Shown in pieces: positions 12,964 through 61,487 of a stretch of 64,000 bases of DNA. Under the pieces are notes generated by a model, which was not told the origin of the DNA, made no database searches, and saw nothing but the letters and a program-made list of their open reading frames with translations. Made by a program: the position numbers and the translations under genes. Where the stretch lies: contig NC_068571.1 of assembly GCF_025698545.1 (NCBI RefSeq), positions 40,705,733 to 40,769,732 of the forward strand, in the 5' to 3' direction. Positions within the stretch are counted from its first letter, which is position 1. Every line of letters starts with the position of its first letter. The stretch is from Gossypium raimondii (Eukaryota; Streptophyta; Magnoliopsida; Malvales; Malvaceae).

Positions 12964-12968
12964 CGAAC
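12964..12968 (+). repeat. Target-site duplication CGAAC, left of element A
   Basis: CGAAC immediately precedes the TG of the 5' LTR and recurs at 24383-24387 right after the terminal CA of the 3' LTR. This is the 5-bp duplication expected of LTR retrotransposon integration. Confidence 0.9.
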
Positions 12969-15858
12969 TGTAATAGCCCATTTTTGCCCGGGGCCCAACA
13001 AATAAAACAAACCAAATAAATAAAACAAGCCCAAATCAGACCAGCCCAAAACTAAACATAACCCTAACCCACAAACTTAAAAAAAAATTTTAGCCAAAAG
13101 AAAGACAGAAACCCTAGGTGCGCCGCACGCCTCTGCCACCTCTGACACTGTCGCTGCACGCCAGCCACCGCCACCTCCACGCGCATTGCACCCCTCTGAC
13201 ACTTGCAGAGAAAAATCAATTACAAGACCACAGAAGAAACAAATAGCAAAAAGAAAAAAAAATAGAAATTACCAGTTTTGTAAATCGGCTATAAAAGCCA
13301 TGAAATATCAATGTATCTCTTCTTATTCTTTTTCGGACACAAAAAATTGAATACAAAACAACAAATAGTTGACAGATTCAAAAATGTGTTTTTTATGCTT
13401 TTATTTTTCTGCCTTTTTTATTATTTATTTTTTACTTGCGTTTCAAAAAGAAAATAAATACAAAATCAAAAAAGGAGAAGCAGATCTTACCTTTCCTGGT
13501 GTTTACGCCGTCGTGGGGGGGGGGGCCGACGTCGTCGTAGCTGATGAAAGACGACATTTTTGGGATCGGGAGTCGAAAAGGCCAAAAATGACCAATTTTT
13601 ATAATCTCCGGCCACCGTAGACGGCGACGCCGTCGCCGGCGACCGGCGGTCGTCACGGTGGTCAGACGACCCCAACGGCCGGATTCTGGGTCTATTCCAA
13701 AGAGAGAACAGAGAAAAAAGGAAGATTTTTTTTAAAAAGCTATTCAAATGATTTTTTTGTTATGTTTTTATTATTTACAATAGGACCAATACGACGTCGA
13801 TTTGGGCCTAAGCTTCAGGCGCCAAAACGGCGTCGTTTTAATAAACCCGCGCACGACTCGACCCGTTCCAAGGGGGATCCGCGCGTTTACGTTGAATGGG
13901 TTATTTGCAACCATGGTCATTTCGTGTTTATGCTTCTTTTAACTTACTCCCATTTTGTTCATTTTTTTTTAAATTTGGCCACAGAATTTTGTTTGGTTCT
14001 CGATCAAGTCCCTGACCCACCAATGCGCTAAAAAATAGACACGTGTCCGGATTTATTTTTTTGTCCATTTGGTCCTCGAGCTTTTGGCGTTTTTTACCTT
14101 TAGTCCTTATTTATTTATTTTATTATAATTTCACTTTTAAATTTTATTTTATCACTATTTAATCCCTAATCTGCCTAATTTTAATCCTTTTTCTTCTTCA
14201 TATATTCTCATTTTTCTTACTTATTTTAAATTTTATATATTATTTATCTTAAACTGTTTTTATATTATTTTGGGAATTATTTAATTTATTTGATATATTA
14301 TTTATTATGAAGTGCTATATATATATATATATATATATATAACATTTTATCTTAAAATGTCTTATAAATTATTTATATTAGATTTTTCATATATTATTCT
14401 TTTAAATTGTTTTATGTATTGTTTATTTTAAATTGCTTTAAATTATTTATTTCAAACTTTTTTATATTTTATTTATGTCAAAATTTTTGTTTATTTTGAA
14501 ACTTTTTTTATATAGGATTTATTTTAAACTTTTTATTTTATTTTATGTACTTTAAACTATTCTTGTATATTATTTTATACCGTTTGTCCTTGATTGTTAA
14601 TTTGTATTAAAATGATGTACATTGTGTGATTATTGCTATCATGTGAACTATAACTAGCTTGTTCATATTTCCATATTATTGTCATTCATTAACGTATCAT
14701 TTTATTTATAAATTGTTATTTAATGTTCTATTATCATTCCATTTCATTTTATCACTTCAAAAGTTGCGTTCGATTTGTATATATATCCACAATAAACCTT
14801 CCTATTTTATCACTAATAAAACAAATGCACATTGTTTAAGTGTTGTACTCGTCATTATTCAAAAAAGAAAATTTTAAAATAAGACAATATTTCGCGTTTT
14901 GGAAATTCGAGAAATCGTACCTAACTTACGGGGTTTCAATTTTCTCGTTAAACCTAAATAGCAAGATACCCTTTTAAATTATGACTTTTGAATAAGCAAA
15001 ATTTCGTGTTTAGATTCGAGAAGGTCGTACCCTAACTTACGGGGTTTCAATTTTCGCAATAAATCTAAATACACGAAATTTTTTCAAACTTTAATTTTTT
15101 AAACGATCTCGGGAATCAACAAAAGATCGTGTTCTAACTTACGGGACATGATCCCTTTTCTAAACCCGAGATAGTTCAATATCTTTTTAAATAAATAATT
15201 TTTTGACATTTATTCACATATCGGGAATTCGATATGTTGTGTTCAACGCATTGGATATGACATGTTGTTTTCTTGATATGAGGATTTTTCTAAAAAATAA
15301 TAAATGCAATATTCAATGTTTGGAATTTTGAGAAATTGTGCCCTAATGTATTGGACTACGATTTCTTCATCTGACTTAAACAATTGAATATCCTTTTGAA
15401 TTTTATTGCATGAGTTTTTTAAGGACAAGCTCACTTTATAGGATGTGAAATATCATGTCCTAACTCATGGGATATGACATTTTCTCTCTCTGAAATGAGA
15501 GGGTCTTAACATGTAATTTGATTTATACAAGTTTTTTTTTAAAACAAAGGATTGTATTTTAAAACTCTTCAAAGTTTTCAATCTTCAACTCTAAGACACT
15601 AACTAATTAACTAGGTACCAATTTTGGGCGTTACGAGGGTGCTAATCCTTCCTCGTACGTAACCGACTCCCGAACCCGTTTTCTAAATTTTGTGGGCCAA
15701 AATCGTTGTTTTGGTAAAATCAAATCGTTTATTAAAAACAATCATTTTTCGAGGTGGCCCGATCACACCTCATCAAAAAGGATTGGTAGCGGCTCCCATA
15801 TTCGTTTTCATTTTCAAAATCCAAGTTGACCCCGTTTTTGAAAAAAATGGTGTCAACA
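12969..15858 (+). repeat. 5' LTR of element A
   Basis: 2890 bp, beginning TGTAATAGCCC and ending GGTGTCAACA. The left third is GC-rich with several ACGNCGT dyads (13785-13840). The middle is extremely AT-rich with a (TA)n tract at 14322-14341. The right third (14885-15500) is an array of about 100-bp stem-loop modules. ORFs inside are open by chance only. Confidence 0.93.
14885..15500 (+). repeat. Array of stem-loop modules in the 5' LTR of element A
   Basis: About six degenerate modules of 90-110 bp. Each has a central CTAACTTACGGG-like motif (14927, 15030, 15137 and weaker copies at about 15250, 15340, 15455) flanked by inverted arms. One example is TTTCGTGTTTAGATT pairing with AATCTAAATACACGAAA around the second module; another is GATCTCGGG with CCCGAGATA around the third. 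The same array occurs at 23405-24010 and, in opposite orientation, in the LTRs of element B. Confidence 0.75.
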
Positions 15859-17760: not shown

Positions 17761-18900
17761 TTGAGCTACTAAGACGTGGGGACACTTTTGAGGCTAAGAA
17801 GATCTTGAAAGAGGTCAATAAGGGTGTCTGAGGAACACATGCTAATAATTTTGCAATGGCCAAGCAAATCATGAGATTCGGGTACTGTTGGTCTACCATG
17901 AGAGAGGATTGCATCAGTTATACCAAGAAATGTCATAAGTACCAAATTTATGGAGACAAGATTCATGTGCCTCATTCATCTCTTCATGTTATGACTTTTT
18001 CATAGACTTTCTCTATGAGAGGCATGAATGTCATTGGGCCGACCTCGCCAAAAGCTTCTGGCGGTCATCGATTCATCTTTGTGGTCGTCGATTACTTCAT
18101 CAAATGGGTAGAGGTTGTTTCATATGCCAATATCACAAAGTTAACAGTCAGTAAATTCTTGAAAAAAGAAATCATATGTCGGTATGAAATGCCAAAAAGG
18201 ATCATATCTGACAATGCACTAAATTTGAACAACAGCACGATATCAGAAGTTTACAGTCTGTTCAAGATTAACACCATATCACCCCAAAATGAACAGTACA
18301 GTGAAAAGAGAGAGAGAGCAAAAAAGAAAAAAAGTAAAAAAGTAAAACAAAAAAACAAGAAAATAAAAAACAAAAAAAACTCTACCGGGGCAACTCATTT
18401 CTCATTGTCATATGGAATAGAGGCAGTTTTACCCATCGAAGTTGATATTCCTTCCTTTCGAGTCTTGTCAGAGCTGAAGTTGGATGAAGCAGAATGGATC
18501 CAGGCCCGATATGATCAGTTAAATTTGATTAAAGAGAAAAGGTTGAAAGCTATCCATCATGGTCAAATGTACCAAAAGCGAATGATGCGAGCTCACCAAA
18601 AAAGTTTGCCCTAGAGAATTCGATGAGGGGGACCTGATATCGAAGAATATCATTCCCTTTACAAAAGGACTTTAGAAGAAAGTGGATGCCAAACTGGAAA
18701 GGACATTATGTGGAAAGCCTTATCTGAAGAAGCGGTGATTTTGATCGGAAGGGATAACAAGGACTGGCCTAATCCTATGGGTTCAGATTCAATCAAAGAA
18801 TGTTTCATGAAAAGAAAAGAAAAAAAGAAAAGAAAAAAAGAAAGAAGAACGAAAAAAGAAAAAAGAAAAAGGAGAGGCCAAGGTGAAAACCCGTAAAGGG
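17761..18900 (+). pseudogene. Integrase remnant of element A
   Basis: Recognisable integrase: the N-terminal zinc-binding part (about 17810-17960, stops inside) and a catalytic core from 18021 (GMNVIGPTSPKASGGHRFIF, IISDNALNLNN) lead to a C-terminal part (18390-18610, SYGIEAVLPIEVDIPSF). The two catalytic aspartate regions are visible, but the stretch that would hold the catalytic glutamate is replaced by an A/G-rich run (18300-18380). Stops and a frameshift near 18600 break the C-terminus, and a second A/G-rich run lies at 18805-18880. Confidence 0.85.
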
Positions 18901-19789
18901 TGCCTTAAGACCAAATGGGTTTTAAATTGAAAACTCAGGAATGAGCAATTCAAATTTTTTGATCAAAGGTGGGGCATGTGGTAGTCTTGTCCTCTCCGAA
19001 TTAATAATAAGGAGAGATGCTACATCTTGGGGCATCAACAAAGTCTTCTAGGACTTCTAAACACATATCAAGTTCAAAAGGGTCCTCAAGATGTTGGGGG
19101 CAGAAAAGCTCATGCTGTGCTATTTGGGGCACCTATTTCCATTTTATTCATTTTTGTATTTTGGCAAAATACGCCATTTTGATTAATTTATTCTCATTTT
19201 GTATTCTAGTAAAATTTTCTATCTTAATTAATTCATTCATTTCGAGCTTTACTCTCAATAAACTTTATCTTATTCGTTTTGATAATCTTTTTCAAGCATT
19301 TTTCATTGAAGTAACGATTAATGGACTGACAAAATTCAAGCAGAAGGAGTTCTGTATATTACTCTGAAAGCTTCTAAATAGTACGAGGACTTGAAATAGG
19401 GCTATTGTTTAGAACTAACCAACTTAAGGGTTAGAAGCATTGGAGAAAGAATAGTCTAAATTACGTCTATTTCTTTGGTTTTTCTGTTAAAGATACTAGC
19501 TGAACAAGAAGGCATCGGTTATAGAACCTTAATAAATTTCGAGCAATGACAACCTAAGCGATAAAGAGGGATCATTCACGAAAAATGACATTCTGCATTT
19601 ATGCAAATATGTATTCATTCAAATCTAGTTAGGAGAATTTGATTCATTATGATCATGACATCCTAATCACTAGGCATAAATAGGTCCATAAAATGGATTC
19701 TACAGGTCATGTTCCCTAGAGAACAGATCAGCGAAACCACAAATCCTATACCACTAAAGTTACAGTAGAATAGATTAAAGAAGATAGAA
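18901..19789 (+). other. 3' untranslated part of element A
   Basis: Non-coding region downstream of integrase, matching the corresponding region of element B (45850-47110), for instance around the TGCTGTG/GGCACC segment near 19110-19130. No ORF of note. Confidence 0.6.
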
Positions 19790-21330
19790 GATCTTGTCTT
19801 CCTGTACCGGCAGCGAAGCAGATCGAAGACACCAGCCTAACCTCCCTAAGTTTGCAGTGGTGCAGATTGAAGATAGCAGATCTTATCTTCCTGTATTGGC
19901 AGCGAAGTGGATCGAAGATAGCAGATCTTATCTTCCTATATTGACAGCGAAGTAGATCGAAGATAGCAAGTCTTGTCTTCTTGTATTGGCAGTGAAGTAG
20001 GTCGAAGATAGTAGATATTGTCTTCCTGTATTGGCAGCAAAGTAGATCAAAGATTGTAGATCTTGTCTTCCTGTATTGGCAGCGAAGTAGATCGAAGATT
20101 GTAGATTTCGTCTTCCTATATTGGCAGCAAAGTAGATCGAAGATAGCAAGTCTTGTCTTCCTGTATTGGCAGCGAAATAGACTGAAGATAGTAGATCTTG
20201 TCTTCCTGTATTGGCAGCGAAGTAGGTCTAAGATAGCAGATCTTGTCTTCCTGTATTGACAGCGAAGTAGATCGAAGATTGTAGACCTTATCTTCCTGTA
20301 TTGGCAGCAAAGTAGATCGAAGATAACAAGTCTTGTCTTCCTGTATTGGCAGCGAAGTAGACTAAAGATAGCAGATCTTGTCTTCCTGTATTGGTAGCGA
20401 AACAGGTTAAAGATAGCAGATCTTGTCTTCCTGTATTGACAGAGAAGTAGATCGAAGATTGTAGATCTTGTTTTCCTATATTGGTAGCGAAGTAGATCGA
20501 AGATAGCAAGTCTTGTCTTCTTGTATTGGCAGCAAAGTAGACTAAAGATAACATATCTTGTTTTCCTGTATTGGCAGCAAAGTAGGTCGAAGATAGCAGA
20601 TCTTATCTTCTTGTATTGGCAGTGAAGTAGGTCGAAGATTGTAGATCTTGTCTTCCTGTATTGGTAGCGAAGTAGGTCAAAGATAGCAGATCTTGTCTTC
20701 CTGTATTGGCAGCGAAGTAGATCGAAGATTGTAGATCTTGTCTTCTTGTATTAGCAGCAAAGTAGATCGAAGATAGCATATCTTGTCTTCCTGTACTAGC
20801 AGTGAAGCAGATCGAAAACTAGTCCTATCTCCCTGAGCAGCAGTGGAGTAGGTTGAAGATTGTATATATTGTCTTCCTGTATTGGCAGTGAAACAGATCG
20901 AAAGCTGGTCCTGTCTCTTTAAGCAGTAGTGGAGCAGATCGAAGACGACGAATCTTATCTTCCCAAGGTAGTAAGGAATCAGATTTAAGCCACTGGTCCT
21001 ATCTCCCTGAGCAGCAGTGGAGTAGGTTAAAGATTGTAGATATTGTCTTCCTGTATTGGCAGTGAAACAGATAAAAAGTTGGTCCTGTCTCCCTAAGCAG
21101 TAGTGGAGCAGATCGAAGACTACAAATCTTATCTTCCCAAGTTAGTAGGGAAGCAGATTTAAGCCACCAGTCTTATCCCCCTGAAGTAACAGTGGGGCAG
21201 ATTGAAGATACAAGTCTTATCTCCCTGAAGTTGCAGTGGAGCAGACTAAAAACACAAATCTCATCCCCTGAAGTTGCAGCAGAGTAGATTGAAGTCATAT
21301 CTCTCTAAAGATGCAGTGGAGTGGATCAAA
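19790..21330 (+). repeat. Tandem array of 45-bp units in element A
   Basis: About 23 head-to-tail copies (19790-20820) of a 45-bp unit containing TCTTGTCTTCCTGTATTGGC, AGCGAAGTAG and ATCGAAGATAGCAGA. A further 0.5 kb holds longer diverged units with TCTCCCTGAGCAGCAGTGG. Neighbours four units apart are often more alike than adjacent ones, suggesting amplification in 180-bp blocks. Because 45 is a multiple of three, long minus-strand ORFs of a 15-residue repeat appear; I regard these as a by-product. Confidence 0.92.
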
Positions 21331-21431: not shown

Positions 21432-21456
21432 ACAACAACGAGCAAAGAGGGGCAAC
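21432..21456 (+). other. Polypurine tract of element A
   Basis: GAGCAAAGAGGGGCAAC directly precedes the 3' LTR. Element B has the same tract (GAGCAAAGAGGGGCAGC on its strand) before its own 3' LTR. This is the plus-strand primer for reverse transcription. Confidence 0.75.
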
Positions 21457-24382
21457 TGCAATAACCCAATTTTGCCCGGGGCCCAATAAATAAAACAAAC
21501 CAAATAAATAAAACAAGCCCAAATCAGACCAGCCCAAAACTAAACATAACCCTAACCCACAAACTTAAAATAAATTTTAGGCAAAAGAAAGACAGAAACC
21601 CTAGGTGCGCCGCAAGCCTCTGCCACCTTTGACACTGCAACCGCACGCCAGCCACCGCCACCTCCACGCGCATCGCACGCCTCTGACACCTGCAGAGAGA
21701 AATCAATTACAAGACCACAGAAGAAATAAATAGCAAAAAGAAAAAAAATAGAAATTAACAGTTTTGTAAATCGGCTATAAAAGCCATGAAATATCAATGT
21801 ATCTCTTCTTCTTCTTCTTTTTCGGACACAAAAAATCAAATACAAAACAAAAAATAGTTGACAGATTCAAAAATGTGTATTTTATGCTTTTATTTTTCTG
21901 CCTTATTTATTATTTATTTTTTACTTGCATTTCAAAAAGAAAATAAATAAAAAATTGAAAAAGGAGAAGCAGATATTACCTTTCCCAGTGTTTACGCCGT
22001 CGTGGGGGGGCCGAGGTTGTCGTCTCCGATGAAATACGGCATTTTTGGGATCGAGAGTCGAAAAGGCCAAAAATGGCCAATTTTTATGATCTCCGGCCAC
22101 CGTGGACGGCGACGCTGTCGTCAGCAACCGGCGGCCGTCACGGTGGTCAGACGACCCCAACGGCCGAATTCTGGGTCTATTCCAGAGAGAGAACAGAGAA
22201 AAAAGGAAGATTTTTTTTAAAAAAAAAGCTATTCAAATGATTTTTTTGTTATGTTTTTATTATTTATAATAGGACCAATACGACGTCGTTTTGGGCCTAA
22301 GCTTCAGGCGCCAAAACGGTGTCGTTTTAATACAACCCGCGCGCGACTCGACCCGTTCCAAGGAGGATCTGCGCGTTTTCGTTGAATGGGTTATTTGCAA
22401 CCATGGTCTTTTCGTGTTTATACTTCTTTTAGCTTACTCCATTTTTGTTCATTTTTTTTAAAATTTGGCCCCAAAATTTTGTTTGGTTCTCGATCAGGTC
22501 CCTGACCCACCAATGCACTGAAAAATGGACATGTGTCCGGATTTGTTTTTTTGCCCATTTGGTCCTCGGGCTTTTGGTTTTTTTTACCTTTAGTTCTTAT
22601 TTATTTATTTTATTATAATTTCACTTTTAAATTTCATTTTATCACGATTTAATCCCTAATCTGCCTAATTTTAATCCTTATTTTTCTTCATATATTCTCA
22701 TTTTTAGCAGCTTTTATTTTTCTTTCTTATTTTAAATTTTATATATTATTTATCTTAAACTGTTTTTATATTATTTATCTTAAACTGTTTTTATATTATT
22801 TTGGGAATTATTTAATTTATTTGATATATTATTTATTATGAATTGCTATATATATATATATATATAACATTTTATCTTAAAATGTCTTATAAATTATTTA
22901 TATTAGATTTTTCATATATTATTCTTTTAAATTGTTTTATGTATTGTTTATTTTAAATTGCTTTAAATTATTTATTTCAAACTGTTTTATATTTTATTTA
23001 TGTCAAATTTTTGTTTATTTTGAAACCTTTTTTTATATAGGATTTATTTTAAACTTTTTATTTTATTTTATGTACTTTAAATTGTTCTTGTATATTATTT
23101 TATATCGTTTGTCCTTGATTGTTAATTTGTATTAAAATGATGTACATTGTGTGATTATTGCCATCATGTGAACTATAACTAGCTTGTTCGTATTTCCATA
23201 TTATTGTCATTCAAGAACGTATCATTTTATTTATAAATTGTTATTTAATGTTCTATTATCATTCCATTTCATTTTATCACTTCAAAAGTTGCGTTCGATT
23301 TGTATATATATCCACAATAAACCTTCCTATTTTATCACTAATAAAACAAATGCACATCGTTTAAGTGTTGTACTCATCATTATTCAAAAAAGAAAATTTT
23401 AAAATAAGGCAATATTTCACGTTTTGGAAATTCGAGAAATCGTACCTAACTTACGGGGTTTCAATTTTCTCGTTAAACCTAAATAGCAAGATACCCTTTT
23501 AAATTATGACTTTTGAATAAGCAAAATTTCGTGTTTAGATTCGAGAAGGTCGTACCCTAACTTACGGGGTTTCGATTTTCGTAATAAATCTAAATACACG
23601 AAATTTTTTCAAACTTAAGTTTTTTAAACGATCTCGGGAATCAACAAAAGATCGTGTTCTAACTTACGGGACATGATCCCTTTTCTAAACCCGAGATAGT
23701 TCAATATCTTTTTAAATAAATAATTTTTTGACATTTATTCACATATCGGGAATTCGATATGTTGTGTTCAACGCATTGGATATGACATGTTGTTTTCTTG
23801 ATATGAGGATTTTTCTAAAAAATAATAAATGCAATATTCAATGTTTGGAATTTTGAGAAATTGTGCCCTAATGTATTGGACTACGATTTCTTTATTCGAC
23901 TTAAACAATTGAATATCCTTTTGAATTTTATTGCATGAGTTTTTTAAAGACAAGCTCACGTTTGAGGATGTGAAATATCATGTCCTAACTCACGGGGTAT
24001 GACATTTTCTCTCTCCGAAATGAGAGGGTTTTAACATGTAATTTGATTTATACAAGTTTTTTTTAAAACAAAGGATTGTATTTTAAAACTCTTCAAAGTT
24101 TTCAATCTTCGACTCTAAGACACTAACTAATCAACTAGGTACCAATTTTGGGCGTTACGAGGGTGCTAATCCTTCCTCGTACGTAACCGACTCCCGAACC
24201 CGTTTTCTAAATTTCGTGGACCAAAATCGTTGTTTTGATAAAATCAAATCGTTTATTAAAAACAGTCATTTTTCGAGGTGGCCCGATCACACCTCTTCAA
24301 AAAGGATTGGTGGCGACTCCAATATTCGTTTTCATTTTCAAAATCCAAGTTGACCCCACTCTTGAAAAAAATGGTGTCAACA
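21457..24382 (+). repeat. 3' LTR of element A
   Basis: 2926 bp, TGCAATAACCC to GGTGTCAACA, collinear with the 5' LTR. Differences include many C/T changes in the GC-rich part and a duplication of a TATCTTAAACTGTTTTTATA block at about 22750-22800 that is single in the 5' LTR. Confidence 0.93.
23405..24010 (+). repeat. Array of stem-loop modules in the 3' LTR of element A
   Basis: Copy of the array at 14885-15500, with the CTAACTTACGGG cores and their inverted flanks preserved. Confidence 0.75.
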
Positions 24383-35375: not shown

Positions 35376-37621
35376 ATGGTACGCTTCATTTCCAAACTCT
35401 CTCTTTTCGGTTTTCACTTGTGTCGCCTTTATCGTCTATTCATCTATTTTTCGATCGTGAAATGATGGTTCGCGTTTACTTCTAGATCCAATCTGTTTTT
35501 TTTCCTTTCTTCATCTTCTGTTTGGATGCGATTATGCTGGTGGAAAATGAATGCACATAAGAGAAAATTTTAGTCCTGATTTGCTAGAAACTAAGCTTAA
35601 TGAAGCTGGATTGTTGTTGTAAGGTTATGAAATTAATTTTGGTTGGTCTAGATTTTATTATCTCATTGTTCATTTACATGCCTCAGTGAAACGCAGTTGA
35701 GGCGATTATCGAGGAAATAGGAATTTTTTTAATTGCTTCAAAATTGGATGTGGCTCGTATTTTGGCATCAAGGAAGTAATTTTTCAGAGAGTTCTGTCAA
35801 GATTTCATGGTCTTATTAATTTGTATCGAAGTTGATGGGTCTTATGTTATTTTCTTTCCTTTATTTTTGGTTGCACTAGCTGCACCGAGTGCATTATTAG
35901 CATCCGATTGTCCCTTCATTATTCCTCTAGGACCGTTTTCATAGGCGTTTCCAGTTTCAGGTGTTTCATTCAAACATGTTTCTTACTTCAAATTTGCTAT
36001 TGTTTTCTTCTCGAGTGTTTTTGAGTATTTGTTAGATTTATTTCTGATAATTGTATCAGTTCATGGAAGCTAAGAAATTGATTTCTTATGTCCTAAAGTC
36101 TTTGGGAAAACGTTTAATGAAAAGAACGAAGACGTTATTATTGGTTGTTTTTTCTTTGCATAGGCACCCATAAAGGGCATCCTTTCGTTGCAAAGGGCAG
36201 CAATGTTCAGAGCCAGCAGTGAGAGGTGGAAACTAGGCATTAGATCATTTAGTACTCAAGGAGCAACAACTGCTGGTGCTCCACAGGCACCCCCTCCTCC
36301 ACCACCACCTGAAAAAACCCATTTTGGTGGTTTAAAAGATGAAGATCGTATTTTCACCAACTTATATGGGTTGCATGATCCTTTTCTCAAAGGTGCCATG
36401 AAACGTGGTGACTGGTATAGAACCAAGGATTTAGTACTCAAGGGTGCTGATTGGATTGTCAATGAAATGAAGAAATCTGGACTCCGAGGACGTGGTGGTG
36501 CTGGATTTCCATCAGGCCTCAAATGGTCTTTTATGCCAAAAGTATCTGATGGCCGTCCTTCTTATCTTGTTGTCAATGCTGATGAAAGTGAACCCGGAAC
36601 CTGTAAAGACAGGGAAATCATGCGGCATGATCCACACAAACTATTGGAGGGCTGCTTGATTGCTGGGGTTGGGATGAGAGCTACAGCTGCTTATATCTAC
36701 ATTAGGGGTGAATATGTGAATGAACGTAAAAACCTTGAAAGAGCTAGAAAAGAAGCATATGAAGCTGGACTGTTGGGCAAAAATGCATGTGGTTCTGGTT
36801 ATGATTTTGACGTTCACATACATTTTGGTGCTGGTGCTTATATTTGTGGTGAAGAAACAGCACTTCTAGAGAGCCTTGAAGGAAAACAAGGAAAACCTAG
36901 ATTGAAGCCTCCTTTCCCTGCTAATGCTGGGTTATATGGCTGTCCCACCACTGTCACAAATGTGGAGACGGTGGCTGTTTCTCCCACAATATTGAGACGT
37001 GGTCCTGAGTGGTTTGCCAGTTTTGGCAGGAAGAACAATTCTGGGACAAAATTGTTTTGTGTCTCAGGTCACGTCAACAAGCCTTGCACAGTTGAGGAGG
37101 AGATGAGTATACCACTTAAGGAGTTGATAGAGAGGCACTGCGGAGGCATCAGAGGTGGATGGGACAATTTACTTGCAGTAATACCAGGAGGTTCATCTGT
37201 TCCACTTTTACCCAAGCACATATGTGATGATGTCCTGATGGATTATGATGCACTCAAGGCTGTCCAGTCAGGACTGGGAACCGCTGCAGTAATTGTGATG
37301 GATAAATCAACTGATGTTGTAGATGCAATTGCGAGGCTTTCGTACTTCTACAAGCACGAGAGTTGTGGACAGTGCACGCCCTGCAGAGAAGGGACTGGAT
37401 GGCTATGGATGATCATGGAAAGATTGAAAGTTGGAAATGCAAAGTTGGAAGAGATTGACATGCTTCAGGAGGTGACCAAGCAGATTGAAGGGCACACAAT
37501 TTGCGCTTTAGGTGATGCAGCAGCTTGGCCTGTGCAGGGTCTAATACGGCATTTTAGGCCAGAGCTCGAGAGAAGGATTAGGGAGCGTGCAGAAAGGGAG
37601 TTGCTCGAGGCTTCTGCGTAA
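35376..37621 (+). CDS. NDUFV1: Mitochondrial complex I 51-kDa subunit (NDUFV1), FMN/NADH-binding
   Basis: Exon 1 contributes only the ATG (35376-35378). A 785-nt GT-AG intron follows, and exon 2 (36164-37621) encodes the rest, giving 486 residues, the length I recall for the Arabidopsis protein. The start MAPIKGILS...LQRA and the RSFSTQ motif form a mitochondrial presequence. A proline run (about 41-50) precedes the mature [30 protein letters not shown] (about 110-119) is the FMN site, [14 protein letters not shown] is the NADH/FMN glycine-rich region, and SCGQCTPC (C402, C405, C408) with C448 binds the N3 4Fe-4S cluster. The subunit oxidises NADH at the tip of the complex I matrix arm and passes electrons to the iron-sulfur chain. 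All key residues are present. Confidence 0.97.
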
Positions 37622-41307: not shown

Positions 41308-41592
41308 TTATGATAATGGCCATGGAGGGTCGGTAGGGCAAGTACAAAGGTGAAAGAGGCAAGTGCAGGTGGGGCATTTGGCGCAGACACTTCCACAGTC
41401 TTCACTTCTATGGCATCTAAACGAAATGATAGGTCCCCTTGCCTCCGCCACCATCTCTGTATCTGCAACCACACATCTACTTTTATCACATTAAACAAAC
41501 ATATGAGTTAAGGTTCAGGCACAACACTGAGTTAGAAACTAACGAGTTGTAAACATTAAGATTACTGCAAATATAACCAAATTCCATGACAT
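41308..41592 (-). CDS. Small secreted eight-cysteine peptide, two exons
   Basis: Exon 1 (41592-41544) and exon 2 (41462-41308) on the minus strand join through a GT-AG intron with continuous phase to a 67-residue protein. Exon 1 encodes a hydrophobic signal peptide (MSWNLVIFAVILMFTT). Exon 2 encodes EMVAEARGPIISFR and then a compact cysteine core, C33, C39, C43, C46, C49, C51, C56 and C58 (C-x5-C-x3-C-x2-C-x2-C-x-C-x4-C-x-C), ending PPWPLS. A signal-peptide exon followed by one mature-peptide exon is the usual layout of plant cysteine-rich secreted peptides (defensin-like, nodule-specific-like). The dense cysteine spacing does not match the gamma-core defensin pattern (GXC), so I give no subfamily. 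Function (defence, reproduction or signalling) is unknown. Confidence 0.72.
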
Positions 41593-41660
41593 CTCTTATA
41601 TCTAATTAATTGAAATTAAGCTGGTGGAAATATGTAGAGCTTATTTATACCTCTATTGTA

Positions 41661-42427: not shown

Positions 42428-43596
42428 TGTTGACACCATTTTTTTGGATGAAAAACGGGGTCCAATTGGGTTTTGAAAACGAAAAAGGGAGTCGCCACCA
42501 ATCCTATTTTGAGGTGTGATTGGGTCACCTTGGAAAGAGGTTGTTTCTAATAAATAATTTGATTTTATTAAAACAACGGTTTTGGTCAACGGAATCTAGA
42601 AAACGGGTTCGGGAGTCGGTTACGTTCGAGGAAGGGTTAGCACCCTCGTAACGCCCAGAAATTTCGTAACGCCCAGAAATTGGTACCTAGTTAATTATCT
42701 AATGTCTTGATGTCGAGAATTGAAAACTTGAAAAATTTTAAAAAATACGATCCCTTGTATTAAACATTAAAAATTTGGGAAAAGAAGCATATTTTATGTT
42801 AATCGAGAAAGAGAATCGTATCCAGTAAGTTAGGACACAATATCTCGAATTCCCAATATACAAAAAAATGCTTATTTAAAAAGTATTTTTAGCTATCTCG
42901 GATTTGAAAGTGAGGTCACAACCAGTAAGTTAGGATGCGATTCTTTTTAAATCCCGAGATCATTTAAAACTTGAGTTTGAAAGATTCGTTTATTTAGATT
43001 TATTGTGAAAATCGAAACCCAGTAAGTTAGGGTACGACATTCTCAAATCTAAACACGAGATTTTGCTTATTCAAAAATTGTAATTTATGTATTGAAATGA
43101 ATTAATCTAACATGAAATAATAAAACACGATGTTAATACTCATAACAAGACGATATTGAATACAATAGTGCAAAATAATACGAACAATTGCAACGTAAAT
43201 AAGATAAATACAAAGTATGAATCAATAACATACGAAATAGCAATGTCTACAAGCAAATAAAATTAAAGCATTCATTCAGATCAATAACATAAATGAAATA
43301 AATAACTAAATGAATACGAATATAAAAAGTAAAAAGATATATGTGTGTGCATAAAATTATGAGAATGTAAAAATCTATGTACGTAAAAATATGTGTAAAT
43401 ATGTATGTGTACATTTATGTGTATGTACAAAGTTATGAAATATATAAAATATAAAGGTAGGTATATGTATATATTTTTATAAAAATAAAAACGTATATAT
43501 ATTATGTGCATGTATGCATTATAAAATATATGAAAGTATATATATACAAGGATATATAAATAAATAAGATATAAAGTATATAGGTATGTATTTATG

Positions 43597-43638
<42 letters not shown>

Positions 43639-45039
43639 TGCGGCTATATACATAAAATAATAAAAGATAAATATGTATAGGTATTCATAAAAATAAAATA
43701 TGTGTATTCGTATATTAAAGTATAAAGTATAAATAATATATATCTAAGTAGATATACATATGTAAGTAAACTTGGAAAGTTATGCGTACACATACTATGA
43801 CAATATGAATGTATATGTATAAATTATAGAATGTATTAAAGTGTAAGTATGTATATAGGTATGTACACATATATCATAATCAAAAACAGTATAAATGGGT
43901 AAACAATAAAGGCAAATAATAAAATAAAAGCAATAATGATAATAATAATAATGGTAATAAAACTAATTACTTTTAAAAAAAACAATAAAAAATGGGACTA
44001 AATAAAAAAAATGCAAAATCCCAGGGGAGAAAAGTAAAAAAGAAAAAAAAACTAAAATAGGGACCAGATTGGAGGGAAGCCCAGAAGCAGAAGGACTGAA
44101 AGGGTAAATAGACCCTCAGTCCAAAACACGCGGATCCTTGGGATCCATCGGGTCAACGAGCGGGTCGCGCTCAATACGGCGCCGTTTTGGAGCCATTGAT
44201 TAGACTCCAAACGGCGTCGTTTCAGACAACACATAAGGCCCAAGAAATACCTTAATCTGATAGCCTCCATTCATTTTTTAAACAAACAAAGAAAAAGAAA
44301 ATAAAAAAACAAAAAAGGAAAACTGAGAGCCCGAATGCTCTCCTCCCCACGCCTCTCTCGGCCCTTAAGCTCAGGCCGCCATCTCCGCCTCCATGGCCAA
44401 TGGCCGGAGTTGCGCGAGAACGGCCCCTAGGCCTCCCCCCTTTGCGGCGTCCCCGAAGGCTAAGCCTTCTCAACCGTGAGATCAAAAGGAAAAGGGATGA
44501 AACGCCCCTTTTGGCTCGACTCCGACGACGGCAAGGGTGGGGTTCCGACACCAGCCCGTCGAAGCGGTAAGGTATTTACTCCTTTCCCTTTCAGTTCCTT
44601 TTTCTTTGTTGAACGATTGCGGAAAAAAATAAACAATAACTAAAGAGTAAAGTAAATAAGAAACAAGAACAGAGAAGAATAAACTGAGTCAACCTTTTGA
44701 TCTGTTTTCCTTTTTGAATTCAAAGCGCTGTGTAAAAAAAAATGTACAGAGATATTGTTTGGCTTTTATAGCCTTTTCCCATGTATTTTGATTGTATTTT
44801 TTTGTCTTGCACTATCATTGCGTGCTCGCTTTTTTCTATCATTTTTTGCGGCGTTGATGAAGCTAGTAGCGGCGGTGGCGATGGGACAAAACGAATGATG
44901 ATGGCAGAGGGAGGGGCGCGGTGCTAGGCTTGGCTAGGGTTTCCGTTTTCTGAAACCCTTAACTGGGTTCTGGGCCTATTGGGCTTATTGGGCCGTTTGG
45001 GCTCTGTTAATTGGGCCTGGGCAATAATTGGGCTGTACA
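42428..45039 (-). repeat. 3' LTR of element B
   Basis: 2612 bp; on the plus strand it begins TGTTGACACC and ends GGGCTGTACA. It includes the reversed stem-loop array (about 42760-43080), a very AT-rich centre with (TA)n at 43606-43634, a GC-rich part with ACGGCGCCGTTTTGG dyads (44175-44225), and a 15-17 bp tandem duplication (GTAACGCCCAGAAATT, 42650-42682) not present in the right LTR. Confidence 0.92.
42760..43080 (-). repeat. Stem-loop modules in the left LTR of element B
   Basis: At least three modules with the core CCAGTAAGTTAGG (reverse of CTAACTTACGGG type) at about 42820, 42923 and 43020. They are flanked by arms such as ATCTCGGATTT / AAATCCCGAGAT and TTTAGATTTATTG / CAAATCTAAACACGAG. 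Homologous to the arrays in element A. Confidence 0.7.
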
Positions 45040-45124: not shown

Positions 45125-45800
45125 AGATTCTCCGTTGCGGCTTCAATCTGTTCTGCTGCGTCGCCTGGAAGTAAGATTCGCCGTTGTGGCTTCGATCCTT
45201 TAAATTGCAATGTCGGGGAAGTGAGATTCGCTGTTGTAGCTTCAATCTGCTCCGCTGCATCGCCAGAAGTAAGATTCGCCATTGTGGCTTCGATATTTTA
45301 AATTGCAATGTCAGGGAAGTGAGATTCGCTGTTGTAGCTTCAATCTGCTCCGCTGCACCGCCAGAAGTAAGATTCGCCACTGTGGCTTCGATCCTTTAAA
45401 TTGCAATGTCGGGGAAGTGAGACTCGCTGTTGTAGCTTCAATCTGCTCCGCTGCATTGCTAGAAGTAAGATTTGCCGCTGTGGCTTCGATCTTTTAAATT
45501 GCAATGTCAGGGAAGTGAGATTCGCTGTTGTAGCTTCAATCTACTCCGCTGCACCGCCAGAAGTAAGATTCACCGCTGTGGCTTCGACCTTTTAAATTGC
45601 AATGTCGGGGAAGTGAGATTCGCTGTTGTAGCTTCAATCTGCTCCACTGCATCGCCAGAAGTAAGATTCGCCGCTGTGGCTTCGATATTTTAAATTGCAA
45701 TGTCGGGGAAGTGAGATTATTGTTGTAGCTTCAATCGCTCATTGATCGCTGTAAGTAAGATTCGCCTCTGTGGCTTCGATCTTTTAAATTGCAAACTATG
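45125..45800 (-). repeat. Tandem array of about 98-bp units in element B
   Basis: Between six and seven head-to-tail copies. Each is made of two related halves of about 49 bp, one containing TTGTAGCTTCAATCTGCTCC and the other GCTTCGATC(C/T)TTTAAATTGC. The first half is recognisably related to the reverse complement of the 45-bp unit of element A (CTTCGATCTACTTCGCTGCC versus CTTCAATCTGCTCCGCTGCA). Confidence 0.9.
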
Positions 45801-57201: not shown

Positions 57202-59168
57202 TGTTGACACCATTTTTTTAGATGAAAAACGGGGTCCAATTGGGTTTTGAAAACGAAAAAGGGAGTCGCCACCAATCCTTTTTTGAGGTGTGATTGGGTC
57301 ACCTTGGAAAGAGGTTGTTTCTAATAAATAATTTGATTTTATTAAAATAACAGTTTTGGTCAACGGAATCTAGAAAACGGGTTCGGGAGTCGGTTACGTA
57401 CGAGGAAGGGTTAGCACCCTCGTAACGCCCAGAAATTGGTACCTAGTTAATTATCTAATGTCTTGATGTCGAGAATTGAAAACTTGAAAAATTTTAAAAA
57501 ATATGATCCCTTGTATTAAACATTAAAAATTTGGCAAAAGAAGCATATTTTATGTTAATCGAGAAAGAGAATCATATCCAGTAAGTTAGGACACAATATC
57601 TCGAATTCCCAATATACAAAAAATGCTTATTTAAAAGTATTTTAGCTATCTCGATTTGAAAGTGAGGTCACAACCAAGAAGTTAGGATGCGATTCTTTTT
57701 AAATCCCGAGATCATTTAAAACTTGAGTTTGAAAGATTCGTGTATTTAGATTTATTGTGAAAATCGAAACCCAGTAAGTTAGGGTACGACATTCTCAAAT
57801 CTAAACACGAGATTTTGCTTATTCAAAATTGTAATTTATGTATTGAAATGAATTAATCTAACATGAAATAATAAAACACGATGTTAATACTCATAACAAG
57901 ACGATATTGAATACAATAGTGCAAAATAATAAGAACAATTGCAACGTAAATAAGATAAATACAAAGTATGAATCAATAACATACTGAAATAGCAATGTCT
58001 ACAAGCAAATAAAATTAAAGCATTCATTAGGATCAATAACGCAAATGAAATAAATAACTAAATGAATACTGAATATAAAAAGTAAAAAGATATATGTGTG
58101 CATAAAATTATGAGAATGTAAAAATCATGCACGTAAAAATATGTGTAAATATGTATGTGTACATTTATGTGTATGTACAAAGTTATGAAATATATAAAAT
58201 ATAAAGGTAGGTATATGTATATATTTTTATAAAAATAAAACATATATATATTATGTGCATGTATGCATTATAAAATATATGAAAGTATATATATACAAGG
58301 ATATATAAATAAATAAGATATAAAGTATATAGGTATGTATTTATGAAAATTAAAAATATATATATATAGACATGCTATATACATAAAATAATAAAAGATA
58401 AATATGTATAGGTATTCATAAAAATAAAATATGTGTATTCAGTATATTAAAGTATAAAGTATAAATAATATATATCTAAGCGAGATATACATATGTAAGT
58501 AAACTTGGAAAGTTATGCGTACACATACTATGACAATATGAATGTATATGTATAAATTATAGAATGTATTAAAGTGTAAGTATGTATATAGGTATGTACA
58601 CATATATCATAATCAAAAAACAGTATAAATGGGTAAACAATAAAGGCAAATAATAAAAATAAAAGCAATAATGATAATAATAATAATAATAATGGTAATA
58701 AAACTAATTACTTTAAAAAAAACAATAAAAAACGGGACTAAATAAAAAAAATGCAAAATTCCAGGGGAGAAAAGTAAAAAAGAAAAAAAACTAAAACAAG
58801 GACCAGATTGGAGGGAAGCCCAGAAGCAGAAGGACTGAAAGGGTAAATAGACCCTAAGTCCAAAACACGCGGATCCTTGGGATCCATCGGGTCAACGAGC
58901 GGGTCGCGCTCAATACGGCGCCGTTTTGGAGCCATTGATCGACTCAAGCAGGCGTGCGTTTGCACAACACATAAGACCCAATAAATACCTTAATCTGATA
59001 GCCTCCATTCATTTTTTAAACAAACAAAGAAAAAGAAAATAAAAAAACAAAAAAGGAAAACTGAGAGCCCGAATGCTCTCCTCCCCACGCCTCTCTCTGC
59101 CCTTAAGCTCAGGCCGCCATCTCCGCCTCCATGGCCAATGGCCGGAGTTGCGTGAGAACGGCCCCTAG
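57202..59168 (-). repeat. 5' LTR of element B, inner part
   Basis: Collinear with 42428-44424 of the left LTR, including the stem-loop modules (about 57530-57830) and the GC-rich promoter-like part. It is interrupted at 59168 by solo LTR C. Confidence 0.9.
59164..59168 (+). repeat. Target-site duplication CCTAG, left of element C
   Basis: CCTAG at 59164-59168 and again at 62741-62745. The uninterrupted left LTR has a single CCTAG here (before GCCTCCCCC), giving the empty site. Confidence 0.92.
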
Positions 59169-61487
59169 TGTAACACCCCCTAACCCGTATCCGTCACCGG
59201 ACTAGGGTTACGAGGCATTATTGAACAAAACACACCTTGATACAAATGTTCAATAGAATTCAAGAATTTAACATTGATATGCAATTCGTTTGAATACAGG
59301 TTTAAATCAACTATTTCTAATTCAAAATATAAGCATTGTATATATATATAAATTGAAATATATTAAGCTTAGCCAAATTTTAAGTAAGTATAATTATAAA
59401 TTCTACTTTAACCTTTTTAAAACAAAACATAACATTTTGATCCCGTTAAACCATAAGAAAATAAGCTATTTTCGTATGGCTATTAATTTCATATACAATA
59501 TATCAAAGTACGACTTTCCAAAACATTTATCTAGCTTTGTACATGCCAAAGTTAAAATTTAAAGCAGGTTTAATACCGAGACAAGAGATAGAGTGATGAA
59601 CTTGTCGACGATCCACGAGCTTGAAGCTTGATCTTAAGTCTAAAAATCGAAAGACATAAACAAACAAAGTAAGCTTTTATAGCTTAGTAAGTCTATAGCA
59701 TAACATAAATTATAAAAATAATTATGTAATTTCTTGATACACTTAATGAATTCATAAATACTATATATGGTAACTATTACATATAGTCAAAAGCATATTA
59801 AATTATCAACTCTTAAAACCGAATGTAAATTCACCATAAACATGAATAGCCGAATGCTTATATACATATATGCTTAACAAATATTAGCTCCAAATGTATA
59901 TACAGTTATTATAACTAAATGTATATATGTATTTATCACTGCATATATCTAAATGCATATATGTGCTTATCGCTTGCACTTCATCGAATGCATATATATA
60001 TTGTTCAAATACATATGCCAAAAGCATATACTTATACTTATCAACCACATGTCTGAATGCACATATATATTTACTATAATCCACATATGTCGAGTGCATA
60101 CACATATATGTATCCAACAATTTCATGATAACCAACATATATATATACTCACTAAACACAAAGATTGAACGTTTATATGCTTATCAAATACTTAGAAACA
60201 AATGTTCATATATTTATCCATTACATATAACCAAAATCATATATATACCCAATGCAAATAATCACTTAATTTACAGATTCACGGCACTTAGCCTGCTAGG
60301 CTTAAAGCTTGATTCGGATCACCGACACTTAGCACGCTAGGCTTATAACCTGATTCAGATCACGGCACTTAGCACTGCTAGGCTTATAGCCTCGATTCAG
60401 TTCACCAAGCACTTAGCACTGCTAGGCTTATAGCCCGATTCAGATCACCAACACTTAGCACTGCTAGGCTTATAGCCTTATTCAGATCAAGCACTTAGCA
60501 CGCTAGGCTTATAGCCGATTCAGGTTGACCAAGCACTTAGCACGCTAGGTTTTAAAACACGAAAATTTCAATTTCTCATATCTGAATAATTCCTCAAATA
60601 TTTATTAACAAACAAACACATATTCACCGTAGTCCATGCTCAAACATAAATGAGTTTGCAAATCATATTTTCAATCCAATTCAAGTACTAATAACTTATA
60701 ATCATATAAATATATTCCAACCTCATTTATAAAAACATAAACTTTTATGCTTTAATTCAATCTAAAACTTGTACACAAATGTACATATAGATATATTCAA
60801 ACTCCGTATACATATTTAACATTTATACCTTTTAAATAAAATTAAAAGCCCATACAAGTATGTTTATTTATATTCGAACCTATATGAATTTATATATATA
60901 CACATTCTTGCCTTTACCTAAGTTCACAACTTATTCATGTATATATAAATATACTTAAATAAATTTAATACAAATAATTTACATGTACTTATGTATACAC
61001 ACCTATTCGAGCATAACATATATATATGTATCTAAGCTCAATATGAAAACATATTTATGTACATCCATACATATTCAAAACTATACATACATGCTTAACA
61101 TTCATATCTTATAATATAATCAATACTTAATTATATATATAAATGTTCCATCTCACATATAATCACCTTATTTAACAAAATTACCTATACAATTACAATA
61201 TACATATTACTAATCAAACCCAAAGCTTTTACATATATATATATGTATATTCGAAAACCCATGTATATATGAGTATAATACATACCTTTAATCAAAGCAA
61301 GAATTTATACATGTATTTATTTTCTCATATTGAATCTTATGTGTATATATATATATATAACCTTCATACAATCAATTAAATTCAGAACATATTCATATAG
61401 ATACATATATAAATATTAATACATTATATATTTATATATATATGCTTTATAGCATTCCCACTTTAACTTAATTCAAAATTTATATAA

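Follow-up and report, generated by a model that had tools for sequence, protein, structure and literature searches.

Genes of the DEFL/CRP kind are, as described in PMC3924332, easily missed by annotation and hard to detect by similarity search. According to PMC3601123, most of the Arabidopsis DEFLs on a custom array showed expression in reproductive tissues; Medicago DEFLs were expressed chiefly in nodules, and many of them in seeds. NCR peptides are defined in PMC7230169 by four or six cysteines, and the pea NCR genes described in PMC9515463 have a first exon of 45-138 bp, a second exon of 63-396 bp and an intron of 29-4,672 bp. Outside the legumes, PMC3924332 describes three NCR-like genes of Arabidopsis, and PMC9387825 describes defensins of actinorhizal nodules.

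The gene examined here lies on the minus strand of a window from Gossypium raimondii, by which we mean the whole stretch of 64,000 nucleotides that was analysed; its genomic position is C7:40747040-40747324. Like the DEFL/CRP genes of PMC3924332, it has two short exons, a putative signal peptide and conserved cysteines; it shares the two-exon layout with the pea NCR genes of PMC9515463, and the division into signal exon and mature exon, together with small size, with NCR and late-nodulin genes. We put at about 85% the probability that the gene works in the plant and that its product is a small, secreted, cysteine-rich peptide of the defensin-like kind.

Gene model and predicted product

The original prediction was of a secreted peptide with eight cysteines, encoded by a two-exon gene, and the exons, in-phase GT-AG intron, frame and cysteine spacing that it gave were reproduced letter for letter (Table 1). 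The spliced product is a 67-residue precursor with cysteines at residues 33, 39, 43, 46, 49, 51, 56 and 58, corresponding to the spacing C-x5-C-x3-C-x2-C-x2-C-x1-C-x4-C-x1-C, and the second codon 5' of the ATG is an in-frame TAA. As in DEFL/CRP peptides, the precursor is short and combines an N-terminal hydrophobic signal with a cysteine-rich mature part; hydropathy in the signal-peptide region, by a hydropathy count, reaches a maximum of 3.5 over 9 residues, and the candidate cleavage site, AEA|RG, probably lies within exon 2. An alternative acceptor, ATACAG, situated 6 nt downstream of TTGCAG, is usable, and its use would swap three residues for one ahead of the likely cleavage site. Exon 2 is GC-rich for the window (GC = 0.503, reached by 50 of 2060 sliding 155-nt pieces), and the mature peptide has a computed pI of 7.7 with the cysteines counted as free, i.e., it is neutral. 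The TATA box that had been named in favour of the gene is present as TATAAATA at the expected place; nevertheless, its support for the gene is weak because the window has many loose TATA motifs (3.2 per kb on its minus strand).

Table 1. Positions and state of the peptide gene in the window and of its copies in the C12 cluster
Feature	Position	Strand	Description
Exon 1	41544..41592	-	49 nt; start codon and hydrophobic core of putative signal peptide (MSWNLVIFAVILMFTT)
Intron	41463..41543	-	81 nt, phase 1, GTTAGT...TTGCAG, GT-AG
Exon 2	41308..41462	-	155 nt including TAA stop; signal peptide end, mature part, eight cysteines
Predicted mature peptide RGPIISFRC...PLS	41311..41439	-	43 residues; cleavage predicted from A-x-A
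Candidate TATA box TATAAATA	41642..41649	-	starts 57 nt before ATG
Candidate poly(A) signal AATAAA	41284..41289	-	19 nt past stop
Tandem cluster, loci L009-L027 and L029-L040	C12:43646412-43746945	all but one copy in same direction	~100 kb
L009, L010, L011, L012, L015, L017, L023, L026			intact copies, eight cysteines, usual splice positions
L021			open frame, seven cysteines
L013			open frame, six cysteines
L016, L024			AG gone from usual acceptor
L014, L018, L019, L020, L022			frames broken

Elsewhere in the window, an LTR pair at 42428-44430 and 57202-59168 (95.2% identical), with its near edge ~0.8 kb upstream of the peptide gene, encloses minus-strand frames that look gypsy-like by eye. 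Between the members of a second repeat pair, at 12966-15858 and 21454-24382 (93.8% identical), lie a tandem array with a 45-bp unit (19780-20902) and a frame at 18015 whose appearance by eye is integrase-like. Further tandem arrays lie at 45125-45794 (98-bp unit, ~7 copies) and 60284-60549 (42-bp unit, ~6 copies), and a nearly complete coding sequence for the complex I 51-kDa subunit (NDUFV1) occupies 36188-37621 as a single 477-residue open frame. Neither the Rfam nor the tRNA scan of the window gave a hit.

A paralogous family on C12 and its displaced cysteine

A search of the cotton genome (750.8 Mb) with the 285-nt window gene as query returned 21 matches, namely the window gene itself, 19 copies in a tandem cluster on C12 and one copy at C12:23.479 Mb; the family may exceed the matches found with this query. 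Within the window no convincing further paralogue was found, and the peptide gene is a single copy there. The cluster copies sit within a repeated unit of several kb; 17 of them are full length and two consist of exon 1 and a partial intron only. Eight of the 17 full-length copies are intact: they share the start, the frame and the splice-site positions of the window gene and encode eight cysteines, so that the DEFL/CRP layout of a signal exon and a mature exon separated by one intron is kept in relatives. Exon 1 measures 58 nt in 16 of the full-length copies and 56 nt in the remaining one. At 49 nt, that of the window gene is 9 nt shorter in frame than the 58-nt form, a difference that appears to fall directly after the ATG. 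The intron of the intact cluster copies, at the same position, is 89-90 nt long, compared with 81 nt in the window gene. When the window protein was aligned with the seven distinct cluster proteins (L012, identical to L011, was omitted), invariance fell on signal-peptide and cysteine positions.

The other nine full-length copies are damaged or altered, and parts of the family are therefore decaying or badly assembled. In six of them (L013, L014, L018, L019, L020 and L022), differing small indels and substitutions are concentrated in ~45 nt of exon 2, in its cysteine-coding part, and there is little variation in exon 1 or towards the end of exon 2. Across 13 copies compared with L011, mismatches per 100 amount to 6.1 for the cysteine part, against 2.4 for the intron, 1.06 for exon 1 and 0.59 for the end of exon 2, with the flanks outside the cluster genes at 4.6-10. 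The bunching of changes in the cysteine part may reflect decay or diversification of the genes, or errors in the assembly.

In the seven distinct proteins of the intact cluster copies, the spacing is C-x1-C-x5-C-x3-C-x2-C-x4-C-x4-C-x1-C. Seven cysteine positions are common to the window gene and the cluster, whereas the position of the eighth differs: the cluster proteins carry it at residue 31, which is Phe in the window gene, and the window gene carries it at residue 49, which is Tyr in the cluster. The isolated copy at C12:23.479 Mb is a frameshifted relic; read in its own frames without repair, it agrees with the window gene at residues 31 (Phe) and 49 (Cys), but its last cysteine position is occupied by Phe. 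In a nucleotide tree the relic groups with the window gene with a support of 0.946, and the window branch is long (0.38); the nucleotide identity of the relic is 0.835-0.846 with the cluster and 0.694 with the window gene, and that of the window gene with four cluster copies is 0.67-0.69. One shared origin of the cysteine shift in the relic and the window gene thus appears likely but is not proven, because the tree groups the two, yet the window branch is long and the relic is nearer the cluster by identity. The moved cysteine offers a clean test of a fourth-disulfide shift inside one small family.

Selection and competing readings

When the window gene is compared with nine cluster copies whose frame is open (the eight intact copies and L021, with L013 left out), dN/dS is 0.35-0.47 with Fisher p values of 0.003-0.033, in comparisons that are non-independent since all share the window gene, and dS is 0.62-0.79. 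None of the nine pairs gave a significant dN/dS for the signal part alone; p values for the mature part alone were 0.006-0.069, three of them at 0.06-0.07. In neutral simulations based on five cluster copies, equally few amino-acid changes arose in 35-93 of 4000 runs, seven of the eight cysteines were retained in 37-55 of 4000, and no more than 714-918 of 4000 runs ended free of stops. In the comparison of the window gene with L011, seven of nine cysteine columns are conserved versus 13 of 33 other mature columns (p = 0.06). Because the paralogues keep the layout and dN/dS is below 1, as purifying selection would produce, the window gene is most likely a selected protein-coding gene rather than a chance frame. 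The proposal of a two-exon eight-cysteine peptide gene is borne out in the intact paralogues by conservation of the start, the splice positions, the frame and seven cysteines.

It could be argued that the gene is a recently silenced stray copy, moved to or left alone on C7, whose frame is intact because its decay is recent. The single occurrence of the peptide gene in the window, the damage in many relatives, the frameshift in the relic that groups with it and the LTR element now ~0.8 kb upstream are all compatible with such a history, but we regard it as unlikely given the long divergence from the cluster, in both identity (0.67-0.69) and dS, without a stop or frameshift, and the low frequency of stop-free outcomes under neutrality.

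A selected gene is also to be weighed against a chance arrangement, in which GC-rich DNA would read as cysteine-rich after an imagined splice. An open stretch with eight cysteines on either strand occurred in 46 of 400 order-2 random windows, but a complete model of signal exon, intron and eight-cysteine part in just two of the 400; the real window contains two eight-cysteine stretches, the peptide gene and a RING finger, and the full model arises from the peptide gene only. With exon 2 held fixed, some compatible hydrophobic exon 1 was present in 385 of 4000 shuffled upstream sequences, and is therefore not rare alone, and one as hydrophobic as the real exon 1 was present in 12 of 4000. Both the random-window and the shuffled-upstream tests are post hoc, having been designed once the feature was known, and conservation among the paralogues is much stronger evidence: the existence of relatives that keep this exon layout, with dN/dS below 1, already contradicts chance, leaving this reading highly improbable. 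Codon usage does not separate the frames, with a value of 16.4 for the true frame and 16.6 for an opposite-strand frame with two stops.

That the 103-codon unspliced frame at 41498-41187, the longest open frame listed there, is translated in place of the peptide is scarcely credible, since this frame is without an ATG and has a TTG start only, and the intact paralogues keep the cysteine frame open instead.

Fold, family and likeness to known systems

A search of the window protein against Pfam and NCBIfam gave no match, and all seven cluster members scanned matched PF07127 (Nodulin_late), with a best E value of 5.2e-5. Scored singly, five cluster members reached 16.1-23.9 bits (E 5.2e-5 to 0.014), all below the curated PF07127 cut-off of 30.4 bits. 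A six-frame PF07127 search of the genome, which reads exon by exon and puts split genes at a handicap, gave six weak matches, none over the cut-off and none in the cluster. Weak matches to Pfam Toxin_2 were obtained for three of eight members (best E 0.55). Against the PDB, the eight-member profile gave 21 matches up to E 10, the best of which were scorpion CS-alpha-beta potassium-channel toxins (E 0.023, cysteines in register), with knottin trypsin inhibitors appearing in the same list from E 0.5; the best E values of single-sequence PDB searches were 0.42 and 0.19.

With the CS-alpha-beta fold taken as defined in PMC5234102, the pattern C...C-x3-C...C...C-x1-C is present in the window peptide, and is also produced by 52 of 1260 gap permutations and 586 of 20000 random placements; a spacing like that of NCR13 is produced by 31 of 1260 and 87 of 20000, respectively. 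The Gly that stands two residues before Cys4 in the majority, not all, of the CS-alpha-beta peptides considered in PMC5234102 is absent, its place being taken by Cys49 in the window peptide and by Tyr in the seven cluster members. We conclude that the product is a defensin-like peptide with a probable CS-alpha-beta fold, nearest the late-nodulin/NCR branch. It would be NCR-like rather than an NCR, because the Pfam cut-off is not reached and the rule of four or six cysteines at set positions is broken by the presence of eight, among which an NCR-like spacing is contained. The window gene is a further member of a known defensin-like kind, with one cysteine unusually placed.

There was no match to the peptide gene among plasmids, and 4 and 31 pattern matches in viral and prokaryote contigs, none of them confirmed, come from non-plant collections and are little informative. 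Phage matches comprised 92 records; among the matches listed (20), E values were ~1 over tRNA-Leu genes, and these were taken as chance. Bowman-Birk inhibitors carry the reactive loop core C-x2-C-x-C-x7-C-x-C, which the peptide lacks, and this assignment was rejected. A plain plant defensin was likewise set aside: plant defensins keep their eight cysteines within defined spacing limits and include an outer pair, and this full pattern is missing here, in agreement with the earlier view that the spacing does not fit a standard plant defensin. A literature search on the cysteine spacing gave a partial spacing match at most, and one on peptide families of cotton and the Malvaceae turned up no description recognised as this family, although absence is not proven.

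On the proposed explanation, exon 1 would encode most of the signal peptide, splicing would be followed by removal of the signal, probably after Ala-Glu-Ala, and a 43-residue peptide with four disulfides would be exported. In the predicted CS-alpha-beta fold the core pairs would be C33-C51, C39-C56 and C43-C58, and the partner of C46 would be C49 in the window peptide and, in the cluster paralogues, the cysteine at residue 31. The peptide may act extracellularly in defence or recognition, and binding of a specific target would be likelier than a strongly cationic membrane-killing mode because the computed pI is 7.7. By analogy with related peptides, our best guess is a role in reproductive tissue or defence. 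More tentatively, and with doubt prevailing, the family may represent a late-nodulin/NCR-related branch that was tandem-amplified in a non-nodulating plant and whose seven-cysteine core is closed in two ways by a moved disulfide half.

Compared with known systems, the window peptide has eight cysteines instead of the four or six of NCR peptides (PMC7230169), and resembles those described in PMC10673856 in its C-x5-C ... C-x4-C spacing. Its cysteines 33, 39, 43, 51, 56 and 58 are spaced like those of chickpea NCR13 as given in PMC11637438, with x3 in place of x4. The inner C-x5-C-x3-C-x7-C is like that of the pine defensin PsDef5.1 described in PMC12583093, and BLAST against a pine defensin from that source gave no alignment. 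The C-x-C near the end is shared with plant defensins, whereas the lack of the outer cysteine pair and a beta-loop of 4 residues are unlike them. The scorpion short-chain potassium-channel toxins match weakly, with cysteines in register and all scores below the cut-offs, which may be read as a resemblance of fold at most; neither descent nor channel block is claimed from it. The case illustrates that a short two-exon peptide gene, easily missed by annotation, can be confirmed via paralogues in its own genome. NCR and late-nodulin genes are characterised by nodule-specific expression in nodulating legumes, whereas the host here is cotton; the link to late nodulins, if true, adds a tandem family outside the legumes to the question of NCR origin.
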